A stretch of 64,000 bases of DNA. Source: Leisingera aquimarina DSM 24565 (GTDB lineage Bacteria > Pseudomonadota > Alphaproteobacteria > Rhodobacterales > Rhodobacteraceae). Shown here one piece after another: positions 22,624 through 25,665 of this stretch. The DNA is taken from positions 2,588,009 to 2,652,008 of the forward strand of contig NZ_KI421504.1 of assembly GCF_000473165.1 (NCBI RefSeq), written 5' to 3'. The notes beneath the pieces were generated by a model, which saw only the letters and a list, made by a program, of their open reading frames with translations, was not told the origin of the DNA and did not search any database. A program made the position numbers and the translations under genes. How positions within the stretch are numbered: position 1 is the first letter of the stretch; each line of letters opens with the position of its first letter.

Positions 22624-22983
22624 GGCTTGTCTCCGGGGCAGATTGCTTTATTCGAGGCCGATCTATCGCTGAATCAGCGTCGCGGGGCAAGCCCGAAGCG
22701 CGATTCGCGAATCACTGACAGCGCGGCGAATCATGGCCGTTTTGCACAAGTGAAAAATACCCCTCAGGTTGAGTTTCTTTATTTTGCAATAATATACGTG
22801 TGAATAACGCGGTGAATAAGCTGTGGATGAATTGAAATAATTGAAATTGCGCAAAAAATAGCGAGTTGAAGTTAATGTAATCCGCACTAGAAAATACAAT
22901 GTGAAATTGCATTTTCTATTTGCGCTGCGCGGCGCCCGTGCCAGCGTTGAGGAGCCTTTTGTCCTTAACGAATGGGGTTCCAA
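22624..22983. other. AT-rich intergenic leader of the FSSGS-repeat gene
   Basis: About 360 bases between xth (minus) and the repeat gene (plus). From about 22735 to 22920 the stretch is visibly A/T-rich against a GC-rich background, with several TGAA/TTGAA words. A hairpin at 22889-22917 lies within it. A possible promoter (TTGAAG at about 22866, TAGAAA at about 22888) lies upstream of the repeat ORF. The xth promoter must be in the same space. Confidence 0.5.
22889..22917. promoter_or_regulatory. hairpin in the AT-rich leader
   Basis: AGAAAATACAAT pairs with ATTGCATTTTCT (one mismatch) around a five-base loop. No T-run downstream. Could be an operator or an mRNA 5' structure for the FSSGS gene. 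Confidence 0.4.
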
Positions 22984-23589
22984 ATGACTGCTCAGCACAA
23001 AATCCAGACCGTCCACGCAATCCGTAAAACCACAGGCGCCAGCTTGTTCGAGGGCGGCGGGGCAGAGTTGTTCTCCTCTGGTTCAACGCCTGAATGTTCC
23101 GCGGATCTGACCGCGGGTGAAGGAGTTTCGCTATATTCTTCCGGGTCCATGCCGCAGGCCGCGCATCGCTGGGCTGGCGGCGAAACCGGATTGTTCTCCA
23201 GCGGCTCAGCGCCGGTGGCCTCCATCGAAACCGCAGCCGGCGACCTGGTAGAGATGTATTCTTCCGGCTCCGCTCCGGTTGCACAAAGCGATGCCGCCGC
23301 AGGTGATCTGGTGCAACTGTTTTCCTCGGGCTCAGCCCCTGCGGAGCAATCAGAGGTTGCGTCTGGCGAGTTGACAGAGATGTTCTCCTCCGGTTCGGCC
23401 CCCGCTGCGCAGGCCGAAACCGGTGCCGGCGATCTGACAGAGTTGTTCTCTTCCGGCTCAGCCCCGGCCGCCACGGCCAAGACGGGCGCGGGCGAGGGGA
23501 CGCACTTGTTCTCCTCCGGTTCTGCCCCTGCAACCGCGGCGCGGACCAGCGCGGGCGATGCCACCCGGCTGTTCTCCTCGGGCAGTTGA
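22984..23589 (+). CDS. FSSGS-repeat protein, candidate multi-core precursor peptide
   Basis: A 201-residue protein. After a ~28-residue N-terminal region (MTAQHKIQTVHAIRKTTGAS) it consists of nine copies of (L/M)(F/Y)SSGS, eight of them followed by x-P. The copies are separated by a 21-residue period (one 20), with spacers such as VAQSDAAAGDLVQ. The protein ends exactly at the ninth FSSGS. Only one Cys is present (ECS after the first copy). No signal peptide or membrane helix is seen. ATG 22984 is preferred because GGGG sits just upstream; ATG 22972 lacks a site. The next genes are an unknown 353-aa protein and an EamA exporter. No function recognised. Confidence 0.85.
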   Translation: MTAQHKIQTVHAIRKTTGASLFEGGGAELFSSGSTPECSADLTAGEGVSLYSSGSMPQAAHRWAGGETGLFSSGSAPVASIETAAGDLVEMYSSGSAPVAQSDAAAGDLVQLFSSGSAPAEQSEVASGELTEMFSSGSAPAAQAETGAGDLTELFSSGSAPAATAKTGAGEGTHLFSSGSAPATAARTSAGDATRLFSSGS

Positions 23590-23596
23590 TCCGGAC

Positions 23597-23620
23597 GGGG
23601 CCGGCCTCCTTCCCGGCCCC
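23597..23620 (+). promoter_or_regulatory. inter-gene hairpin between the FSSGS gene and the 353-aa gene
   Basis: GGGGCCGG pairs with CCGGCCCC around an eight-base loop, seven bases after the repeat-gene stop and without a T-run. Such a stem can stabilise or partly terminate a precursor mRNA so that the first gene is made in excess. Confidence 0.5.
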
Positions 23621-23686
23621 TGACCTTGGGCGGCCCTGCAACCGGGGTCGCCGATATCGCGCCGCATCTGTCTGAACGAGGTTTCC

Positions 23687-24748
23687 ATGGCCCAGATCAT
23701 CCCGTTTTTCTCTCCTGCCGCCCGCCAGTCCCGGGCCTGTGCGCAAGAGGCGCTGATTGCCGGTTTCGCAACGCACCGGCGCAGCCAGGAGGACGTGTTC
23801 TGGCTCAAGGAGAACGCCGAGCTGCTGAATATTCTGGAGTGCACCGGGGCGGATGTTGCCGCTGACGCCCTGCAGCCCTTGCAGCAATTTTACGATGGTG
23901 CGGCGCGTCATATCAGTTTTTTCCGGCAGTATTACCGTTTTATCCTGTCGATTTGCCTGGACCTTGAGGATCTGGGTCTGCCGGGGCAGACCGGGGCGCA
24001 ACTGGCAGGCTGGGTGTCAAAGCAGGGGCTGGCTCAGGCCGAACTGTCCGATTTGCAGCGTGCCGAAGCCCGGCGGCTGCTGGCGCGCCGCGGGATAGAT
24101 CTGATTGATGACGGGCTGGACGACCGGCTGCGCGGCTTCATTTCCAATCCGCAGACCTTTGCCATTCCCAACAAGAAGGCAGCTTATGAGCTGACTCATA
24201 TCGTTTTCTATCTCTCTGAATACGGCCGCCGCGACCCGGACCTGCCGGAGGCGGCGCTCACCAGCCTGGAATTTGCCGGTCTGGTGGCCTTTTTGGATCA
24301 GAATGCAGACCTGCTGGCAGAGATCTGCATTGCGCTGCGATTTGCGGGCCAACAGCCGCCTGCTGCCTGGGAGGCGTGGCTTGACCGGCGGGTTTCTGCC
24401 TATATGCTCGCTAAAGGAGAATTTTATGGACATCAGGATGCGTATCACGAGTATTTTGTGGTCAACTGGCTGATGTTGATGTCCGGGCGTTCGGCTTTCC
24501 GGCAGGCAGTCCCGCTAGGCGGGCTGCATGTGTCGGCACAGCAGGGAGGGAGCATTTTGAGAAGCCTGTCTGAAGCCGTTTTCGACGCCGGGATGGCGCG
24601 GACCAGCTGGAGTGCGGTGAAAACACGCGCTGAGGCGGTTCTGAGCGAGGAGGAGAACGGGCTGCTCACCGCGGCAGAGCGCAGCTGTGCCAGGTTTGCC
24701 GGATTTTTCGAAGGGTTTGCCCGGGCGGGCAGCGCGGGGGCCGCGTGA
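23687..24748 (+). CDS. unknown protein, partner of the FSSGS repeat gene
   Basis: A 353-residue soluble protein that begins AQIIPFFSPAARQSRACAQE. Its N-terminal half has FWLKENAELLNILECTGADV, then a helical stretch FDGAARHISFFRQYYRF. The middle contains KKAAYELTHIVFYLSEYGRR with a His in a conserved-looking helix, and the C-terminal part has ALRFAGQQPPAAWEAWLDRR and YMLAKGEFYGHQDAYHEYFV with several His/Tyr. I recall a Rhodobacterales DUF of this type (DUF6902) but cannot confirm it. ATG 23687 has GAGG upstream. It overlaps the EamA start by one base (TGATG), so it is co-translated with the exporter. The two His-rich segments could bind metal. Confidence 0.8.
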   Translation: MAQIIPFFSPAARQSRACAQEALIAGFATHRRSQEDVFWLKENAELLNILECTGADVAADALQPLQQFYDGAARHISFFRQYYRFILSICLDLEDLGLPGQTGAQLAGWVSKQGLAQAELSDLQRAEARRLLARRGIDLIDDGLDDRLRGFISNPQTFAIPNKKAAYELTHIVFYLSEYGRRDPDLPEAALTSLEFAGLVAFLDQNADLLAEICIALRFAGQQPPAAWEAWLDRRVSAYMLAKGEFYGHQDAYHEYFVVNWLMLMSGRSAFRQAVPLGGLHVSAQQGGSILRSLSEAVFDAGMARTSWSAVKTRAEAVLSEEENGLLTAAERSCARFAGFFEGFARAGSAGAA

Positions 24749-25665
24749 TGGTCTGCACGCGCAATCAGGCCTTGGGCGGTGCATTGCTGGTGGTGGCCTA
24801 TACCGGCCTGATTGCCTCAGCTGACGGGATCACCAAATTGCTGGCGGGGCAGTATGCCGCGGCGCAGCTTTATGCGCTGTCCGGCGCCATGGTGGTGGGG
24901 TTCTGCCTGCTGGCGGACCGGCTGCCGGCGCAGCGCGGCGGTTTCCGCACCCGCTGCCCGCGGGCGATGGCGCTCAGGTCAGTGGCGACGCTGATCGCTG
25001 CGGTCTGTTTCTTCTATGCCTTCCGGCTGCTGCCCTTTGCCGAGGTTTTTGTGTTTATCGGCCTGATGCCGCTGCTGGCGGGTGCCATGTCCGGAGCAGT
25101 ATTGAAAGAGCCTGTGCGCCCTGCGGCCTGGATTGCGCTGGCGGCGGGATTTTGCGGCGTGCTGTTCCTGCTGCCGCATGGCAACGAGGACGCCCATGCG
25201 TCCTGGGGCCACTTCGTGGCCTTCGGCGCAGTGGTCGCTGGTACATTTTCCATGACGATGGCACGGTTTATCGGCCGGTATGAAAGCAATGCGCTGGCGC
25301 AGGTGTTCTATCCCAACCTGACGCTCTGCGGTGCAATGCTGTTGGCGCTGCCGTTTGTATGGGTGCCGATGCCGCTTGCTGATGTGGGGTGGGCTGCGGC
25401 CTATGCCTTTTTGCTGTTCGGCGCCCGCTGGCTGCTGGTGGTGGCGTTGCGGCTCATGGCCTCTTATGCGGTGACGCCGCTGATGAACCTGCAATTCATC
25501 TGGATGGCGGTTATCGGTTCAGTCTTTTTTGGGGAGTTTCCGCCGGCCTCCACCTATATCGGCGGCGCCATCGTGATTGCGTCCGGTCTGTATTTGGTCT
25601 GGGACCAGTTTGCACCTGCGATGCCGCGCCTGCGCAGTGCCGGGCGGCTGCAGACCGATCCGTGA
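24748..25665 (+). CDS. EamA/DMT-family membrane transporter
   Basis: A 305-residue integral membrane protein with about ten hydrophobic segments in two homologous halves of the EamA/DMT fold. The first half contains LGGALLVVAYTGLIASADG and LIAAVCFFYAFRLLPFAEVF; the second ends TYIGGAIVIASGLYLVWDQF. ATG 24748 overlaps the stop of the unknown 353-aa gene (TGATG), so the three genes 22984-25665 look like one unit. EamA proteins commonly export small metabolites or nucleotide sugars. In this setting export of a product of the FSSGS locus is plausible but unproven. A terminator pair follows. Confidence 0.9.
   Translation: MVCTRNQALGGALLVVAYTGLIASADGITKLLAGQYAAAQLYALSGAMVVGFCLLADRLPAQRGGFRTRCPRAMALRSVATLIAAVCFFYAFRLLPFAEVFVFIGLMPLLAGAMSGAVLKEPVRPAAWIALAAGFCGVLFLLPHGNEDAHASWGHFVAFGAVVAGTFSMTMARFIGRYESNALAQVFYPNLTLCGAMLLALPFVWVPMPLADVGWAAAYAFLLFGARWLLVVALRLMASYAVTPLMNLQFIWMAVIGSVFFGEFPPASTYIGGAIVIASGLYLVWDQFAPAMPRLRSAGRLQTDP

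Follow-up and report, generated by a model that had tools for sequence, protein, structure and literature searches.

A conserved pair of repeat-protein and DUF6902 genes as a probable multi-core peptide system of Rhodobacteraceae

The 64,000-nucleotide stretch of Leisingera aquimarina DSM 24565 analyzed here (contig NZ_KI421504.1, positions 2,588,009 to 2,652,008; hereafter the window) carries on its + strand a gene for a repeat protein followed by a gene for a protein of the Pfam family DUF6902 (PF21843), and the two make up a real conserved unit that we interpret below as a probable peptide-modification system. The first gene (22984..23589, +) encodes a precursor-like protein of 201 aa, in which a 28-residue N-terminal segment is followed by nine [FY]SSGS cores. 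In the open reading frame (ORF), this array of nine cores and eight spacers occupies 23068..23586 (+), the last core forming the C-terminus and the stop codon lying directly 3′ of it; the start at 22984 is favored over an in-frame ATG at 22972 by alignment within the genus. A first-pass annotation of this DNA had described the protein in the same terms, and its length, the 28-residue leader, the nine motifs and the end at the ninth copy are all seen in ORF 22984-23589; the period of 21 residues that it gave holds as a regular spacing, though not strictly, the motifs standing 20 or 21 residues apart. The repeat protein has no NCBIfam match and nothing above the Pfam cut-off, and inspection by eye revealed no secretion signal in its N-terminus. 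The second gene (23687..24748, +) encodes the DUF6902 protein, a candidate peptide-modifying enzyme of 353 aa that matches PF21843 over residues 1-347 (E 3.3e-144, 480.6 bits against a cut-off of 27).

The two genes accompany each other in both directions of search. Among 390 genomes sampled from the order (Rhodobacterales, 139 genera), DUF6902 lies above the cut-off in 107 (108 at E <= 0.001, in 47 of the 139 genera), and above the cut-off it was seen in one bacterial family only, the Rhodobacteraceae. A profile of the repeat protein matches 81 of the 390 genomes, all of them among the 107 with DUF6902 and none among the 283 without (Fisher p about 3e-61, uncorrected for relatedness); built from FSSGS-type genes only, this profile misses 26 DUF6902 genomes. 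The first-pass annotation had regarded repeat homologs occurring mostly without the 353-aa gene as fatal to its proposal, and the 0/283 count is the opposite of that pattern. Likewise, in 61 related genomes DUF6902 lies above the cut-off in 24 and the repeat protein is present in the same 24, each search giving one extra weak match, in different genomes. The neighborhood comparison that the annotation had also suggested covered 119 loci, that is, 120 fetched regions plus the window, minus two (L141 and L142) in which tblastn to the window's DUF6902 gave no match or a weak short one; eight same-genus genomes with DUF6902 were left out of this wide-flank set. A repeat ORF lies directly upstream of DUF6902 and on the same strand in 117 of these loci. 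This count started from a script that gave 116 loci with at least two copies, including a false call (L121) and a wrong-frame call (L162), and was completed by frame reading, which restored L162 and added L190 and L188, the latter with two unlike copies; the region of L103, which is not among the 117, ends at a contig edge. A set of 80 named loci, kept out of 375 relatives of the DUF6902 gene and partly repeating the 390-genome loci, has a repeat ORF with at least three copies upstream of DUF6902 in 78, the other two being uninformative (L259 and L270; contig edge, run of N). These repeats are not due to chance, because a 4-mer occurring at least three times is common in the ORFs upstream of DUF6902 (106/119, L162 among them in the wrong frame) and rare both in background ORFs of the same loci (42/3,657) and in shuffled precursors (24/2,300). 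A two-copy threshold does not discriminate, being reached by 1,180 of 3,657 background ORFs and 991 of 2,300 shuffles; we relied on at least three copies together with motif reading, and nine two-copy loci were accepted by motif alone.

A few loci deserve separate mention. At L121 (G176), the exonuclease III-like gene discussed below lies unusually close, and the precursor may be lost or located elsewhere. At L132 (G207), the DUF6902 match is split into several separate pieces and the match to the repeat gene contains stops, suggesting that the pair decays together. Runs of N break or replace the repeat arrays in L102, L162, L267 and L270, and repeat numbers in draft genomes may be too low.

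Within the repeat protein, leader and core are under different constraint, as in RiPPs (ribosomally synthesized and post-translationally modified peptides). In seven equal-length Leisingera orthologs, with core positions defined on the window's gene, the ratio of nonsynonymous to synonymous change (dN/dS) is 0.011 in the core, 0.178 in the spacers and 0.328 in the leader; with synonymous change in the core high (proportion of synonymous differences, pS, 0.58) and dN/dS this low, it is the protein motif itself that is held. The core consensus, taken from 719 repeats in 111 genes, reads F, T/S, S/T, then G/S/W, then S/L/M/C/A, often with Pro at +2 after the core. Ser or Thr occupies core position 3 in 0.96 and position 2 in 0.87 of the repeats, frequencies partly built in by a search pattern that fixed Gly at -6, restricted position 3 to S, T, C or Q and gave a few spurious consensus words such as MNTMH and LFSFL. 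In about two thirds of the repeats, Asp or Glu follows the spacer Gly (six before the core). With this Gly set by the pattern, the AGDL-like spacer words that the first-pass annotation proposed as possible cleavage sites are candidate sites at most and a weaker part of its proposal. Across genes the cores read FSSGS, FTSGS, FTSGL, FTSSL, FTTSM, FTSWS, FSTSC, FTCGL, FTSCA and others, and where a gene has three or more copies (105 genes), its repeats agree with its own core consensus at 0.98, compared to 0.50 between genes. On a tree of 102 DUF6902 proteins, the 30 core labels need 36 changes, a number that is approximate because a few labels were mis-extracted (e.g. L108, L117 and L174), and five genomes of a single genus carry four different cores. 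Because cores are uniform within a gene and different between close relatives, whole arrays switch together. Repeat numbers range from 2 to 20 across loci, and in some genes the cores lie only 8 residues apart, indicating that a long spacer is not essential.

The first-pass annotation suspected that the 353-aa protein belonged to a Rhodobacterales family of undescribed function and proposed a profile search of it, counting membership in a well-known housekeeping family as a refutation; the suspicion was borne out by the DUF6902 assignment, and the only two Pfam families matched are both function-unknown. The second of these is DUF6895 (PF21836), which matches residues 28-231 (E 2.5e-24, 86.6 bits against a cut-off of 23.8); since this match is far weaker than that to DUF6902, we file the protein as a relative of DUF6895. 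The 11 closest named relatives of the window's DUF6902 gene are 82-87% identical to it, nine of them from Leisingera. In the Pfam scan no ATP-binding or S-adenosylmethionine (SAM)-binding family matched at E <= 1, no known RiPP enzyme family matched in Pfam or NCBIfam, and the same scans found no RiPP recognition element or other leader-binding domain, no dedicated finder having been run. Six residues, Tyr167, His171, Gly180, Asp208, Glu212 and His254, are common to 26/26 aligned proteins (12 DUF6895 and 14 chosen DUF6902 proteins) and stand at 0.99-1.00 over 117 DUF6902 rows. They fall mainly in three short motifs: Y-x-x-T-H, from Tyr167 to His171 (codons 24185..24199, +), with Tyr and His in 26/26 proteins and at 0.99 each in the 117 rows; D-x-x-x-E, from Asp208 to Glu212 (24308..24322, +), both in 26/26 and at 0.99 and 1.00; and Tyr253-His254 (24443..24448, +), with Tyr in 25/26 and at 0.97 and His in 26/26 and at 1.00. 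This conserved Tyr/His/Asp/Glu/His set could be catalytic, with a role in metal binding or acid-base chemistry, and the sharing of such candidate residues is what a DUF6895-type peptide epimerase would have in common with DUF6902.

An AlphaFold2 model of the DUF6902 protein based on 50 sequences is almost wholly helical (predicted local distance difference test score, pLDDT, 89.9; predicted template modeling score, pTM, 0.90). Foldseek gave no match to this model at E <= 0.001. Among weaker matches, the best by E-value are helical-repeat proteins such as Ric-8A and armadillo designs (template modeling score, TM, about 0.2), and those of highest probability are complement C4d (0.97) and GH154 (0.90), both at TM about 0.4, and transcobalamin; the last three we take to be alpha/alpha toroids, and we treat the DUF6902 fold as toroid-like rather than as a proven toroid. 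In the PDB, no sequence relative was found for the DUF6902 profile or for the Kitasatospora DUF6895 protein described next.

DUF6895 proteins outside DUF6902 occur in genomes and on plasmids, and a small precursor-like ORF lies directly upstream of DUF6895 in 8 of the 11 intact loci examined (Kitasatospora, Streptomyces sp., Pseudalkalibacillus and five further genomes; Actinomycetota, Bacillota and Pseudomonadota). These ORFs combine a leader of the type LxxLxxxGIIDxxxTLxxL with an aromatic core further downstream, for example GYVLAWDKYVLVV or DWTFVSPNYVYKG. The eight peptides were initially chosen by eye; when leave-one-out profiles were run against 2,262 ORFs, every omitted peptide came out on top or was outranked only by G889's other precursor, two of the scores being weak (E 0.0015 and 0.68). 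The other three intact loci, in S. fungicidicus, Cupriavidus and G1247, gave no clear precursor assignment. On the Streptomyces fungicidicus plasmid (L231:5833-9688), a 62-aa ORF lies upstream of two tandem DUF6895 genes and a serine hydrolase gene directly downstream; in G1247 (L313), DUF6895 lies inside a 918-aa open frame, with an upstream small ORF that contains the aromatic segment KTWSFFFSDRD. Two Actinomycetota plasmids (L228:7708-9737 and L230:7329-9455) and a genome of the window's phylum (L314, G1325) have DUF6895 behind small peptides with similar cores (GYVLAWDKYVLVV, GYVLAWERYVLVV and GYVFVWDKYVYDV); we found no description of this precursor family. A genome of the window's own family that gave no DUF6902 match (G078, L227:8961-9608) has a truncated DUF6895 gene, and the ORF before it resembles a precursor weakly (E 0.49). 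Few genomes in the orders of G889 and G957 have DUF6895 (1/121 and 3/115, the center genomes counted), and G452, G471, G576, G862 and G872 have sub-threshold DUF6895 matches. Within one full-text collection, we found no paper naming DUF6902, PF21843 or PF21836, nor the repeat protein, and related-topic literature in that collection yielded nothing on this system. DUF6895 is mentioned there in one paper, a review (PMC13352647), which cites a study by Shi et al. (ACS Catal. 2026) whose title names a DUF6895 protein as an epimerase of lasso peptides.

Downstream of the pair, an optional third gene (24748..25665, +) encodes an EamA-family transporter (PF00892, E 5.1e-12). As the first-pass annotation observed, this ORF can start at the ATG at 24748, which overlaps the stop of the DUF6902 gene by one base. 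EamA adjoins DUF6902 in 70 of the 119 loci and lies somewhere in the fetched region in 71. An exporter as an essential part is therefore rejected as a general rule, the other 48 loci without EamA in the region including the contig end L137; and of the precursor, modifier and exporter layout that the annotation saw as fitting a ribosomal peptide locus, the first two elements stand, with the conserved pair and the kinship of DUF6902 to a family whose member is titled an epimerase, while the third is optional. The position of the locus is conserved. A gene called as Exo_endo_phos by Pfam, presumably exonuclease III-like, is in the region of 117/119 loci, and one called as Fe-S_biosyn, which we take to be erpA-like, in 113/119, the latter within 200 nt after DUF6902 in many loci without EamA. 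Because EamA adjoins only these 70 loci and the erpA-like gene often follows DUF6902 so closely, the minimal system is two genes. We considered a mobile or viral origin and rejected it, as no tblastn relative was found in viral contigs, the window's DUF6902 has no plasmid match and the flanking genes are conserved. Nor does the locus look like that of a lasso peptide, neither a leader peptidase nor an asparagine-synthetase-like cyclase being among the three neighbors, the only ones scanned.

Between the two genes, a GC-rich hairpin lies 3′ of the precursor stop (23597..23620, +) and might act as a transcript stabilizer or attenuator. The hairpin reported in the first-pass annotation is thus present; for the intergenic stretch as a whole, folding is no stronger than that of dinucleotide shuffles (z -0.86). 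In the 45 nt after the precursor stop, compared across 103 loci with mononucleotide shuffles, folding leans stronger (mean z -0.98, with 32/103 below -1.5). We therefore no longer count the hairpin among the strong features, since the complete intergenic RNA is unremarkable and the tendency across loci modest.

Altogether, we favor a model whereby the locus is a multi-core RiPP-like peptide system in which the repeat protein is modified by a dedicated DUF6902 enzyme, most likely by epimerization, and we consider this model probably correct; in Rhodobacteraceae it most likely represents a system of multi-core peptides not described before, a novel variant among RiPPs. In this model, the repeat protein would be the substrate, offering a short N-terminal recognition segment and then nine near-identical five-residue cores; the spacers have a Gly six residues before each core, with Asp or Glu usually as the next residue. 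The dedicated modifying enzyme would be DUF6902, whose predicted fold is helical and toroid-like and which has the Tyr/His/Asp/Glu/His set shared with DUF6895. Its most likely reaction is epimerization of one core residue from L to D, the conserved set providing acid-base catalysis, possibly metal-assisted. The array would yield one short peptide in many copies, or else work whole as a modified protein; EamA, where present, may export the product. The enzyme–substrate reading is the best one because of the two-way co-occurrence, the single gene order, the core-specific selection and the kinship with DUF6895, which counts as support since that family contains the titled peptide epimerase and often stands behind precursor-like ORFs. 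As judged from gene order, an encoded precursor thus lies beside a co-occurring candidate modifier, as in RiPPs (117/119 forward, 81/81 in reverse). Epimerization is favored because the whole candidate site is shared with DUF6895.

Several points weigh against this model. The product, its modification and its cleavage are deduced from the genes, and the epimerase precedent is a title concerning a lasso peptide, which is unlike an array. DUF6902 and DUF6895 are only distantly related (17-18% identity to the first row of the latter), and the DUF6902 structural model lacks a Foldseek match at the threshold given above. The co-occurrence statistic lacks a correction for ancestry, at L121 no repeat gene was seen upstream of DUF6902, and EamA is not adjacent in 49/119 loci (including the contig end L137 and the broken gene at L132). 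No protease is among the window neighbors scanned (an endonuclease/exonuclease/phosphatase family protein, EamA and an iron-sulfur biosynthesis protein only); a protease may be encoded elsewhere in the genome. Moreover, an AlphaFold2 model of the repeat protein is beta-solenoid-like, with strands in the repeats, and although of low confidence (pLDDT 63.6, pTM 0.64) would suit a structural protein.

The alternative that survives best keeps the same enzyme–substrate pair and changes the chemistry, with DUF6902 dehydrating, oxidizing, crosslinking, phosphorylating or acylating Ser, Thr, Cys or Phe of the core. We regard it as unlikely, yet it has a claim to attention, as Ser, Thr and Cys are common targets of modification and Ser or Thr dominates core positions 2 and 3 (for position 3, within the limits of the pattern), a site with two His and two carboxylates would also suit metal-dependent oxidation, and the relationship between DUF6902 and DUF6895 is distant. 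It is countered by the full sharing of the active-site-like residues with DUF6895, by the lack of ATP-binding and SAM-binding matches, and by epimerization being the only function that we found reported, by title, for the wider family. Less likely still, and the chief structural rival, is a beta-solenoid with a surface, adhesive or ice-binding-like function, in which the cores would form a ladder and DUF6902 would serve as chaperone, anchor or modifier. The predicted strands, the wide variation in repeat number, which is usual in solenoids, and a period of 20-21 residues, about one solenoid coil, agree with it; structure predictors, however, tend to fold perfect repeats into solenoids, and the confidence of the model is low. 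Short arrays (23/119 genes with only 2-3 copies by a 4-mer counter that undercounts), the 8-residue core spacing that breaks the coil period in some genes and cores that switch as a set between close relatives speak against a solenoid, as does the N-terminus without a visible secretion signal. A small-molecule pathway, in which DUF6902 and EamA would produce and export a metabolite built on the repeat protein as scaffold or carrier, is very improbable, for although EamA transporters usually move small molecules and EamA is a frequent neighbor, it is not adjacent in the 49 loci noted above, and the erpA-like gene often begins so soon after DUF6902 that no room is left for a further biosynthetic gene.

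Returning to the multi-core peptide system, it is tempting to speculate that Rhodobacteraceae possess a peptide class in which a toroid-like enzyme flips Ser or Thr to the D form in up to twenty tandem cores, and from which many short D-residue peptides are released whose sequence switches as a set, like a private signal or competition factor. In this full form the idea is tentative and may well prove wrong; if true, the DUF6895/DUF6902 superfamily would consist of peptide epimerases in general, served by precursor families of its own across several phyla. Confirmation of epimerization would make DUF6902 a peptide epimerase that acts iteratively at multiple sites, with about 30 cores as its natural library. 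The presence of DUF6902 in over a quarter of the order genomes sampled (107/390) makes the pair common in an abundant marine bacterial family, and with different cores per strain, many copies and a single small enzyme with a defined candidate site, the chemistry is testable with two genes. Since DUF6895 loci of Actinomycetota and Bacillota have the same residues and gene layout, the result could extend to the wider superfamily.

Known systems offer partial parallels to the proposed one. Pheromone precursors of the yeast alpha-factor type contain many identical short peptides separated by spacers, and the repeat protein resembles them in combining repeated identical short peptides and spacers in one precursor; it differs in being bacterial, in showing no secretion signal by eye and in having a dedicated candidate modifying enzyme, and, unlike for these pheromones, we know of no receptor for it. 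Cyanobactins have several cores in one precursor and a modifying enzyme encoded nearby. The same arrangement, with several core copies per polypeptide, is described for microviridin precursors (PMC5934393). Compared to such multi-core RiPPs, the present locus family has up to 20 cores, its DUF6902 protein falls outside the RiPP enzyme families known to Pfam and NCBIfam, and a protease is not among the neighbors scanned. A precedent for a ribosomal-peptide epimerase is MslH, which is reported to act by metal-dependent acid/base catalysis on the C-terminal Trp of one core in the lasso peptide MS-271 (PMC10406935); set beside DUF6902 by description, it differs in having a single-core C-terminal target where the repeat protein has many cores. 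With respect to the DUF6895 lasso epimerase named by title, the present locus differs in having no lasso enzyme among the window neighbors scanned. Finally, DUF6902 is a Pfam family separate from DUF6895 (PF21836), seen above the cut-off in one bacterial family only, and it is partnered by arrays of short cores, whereas the partner of DUF6895 has one or two aromatic cores and a different leader; the two families are alike in their sequence relationship, their six common residues and the small precursor-like ORF that precedes DUF6895 in most of the intact loci examined.

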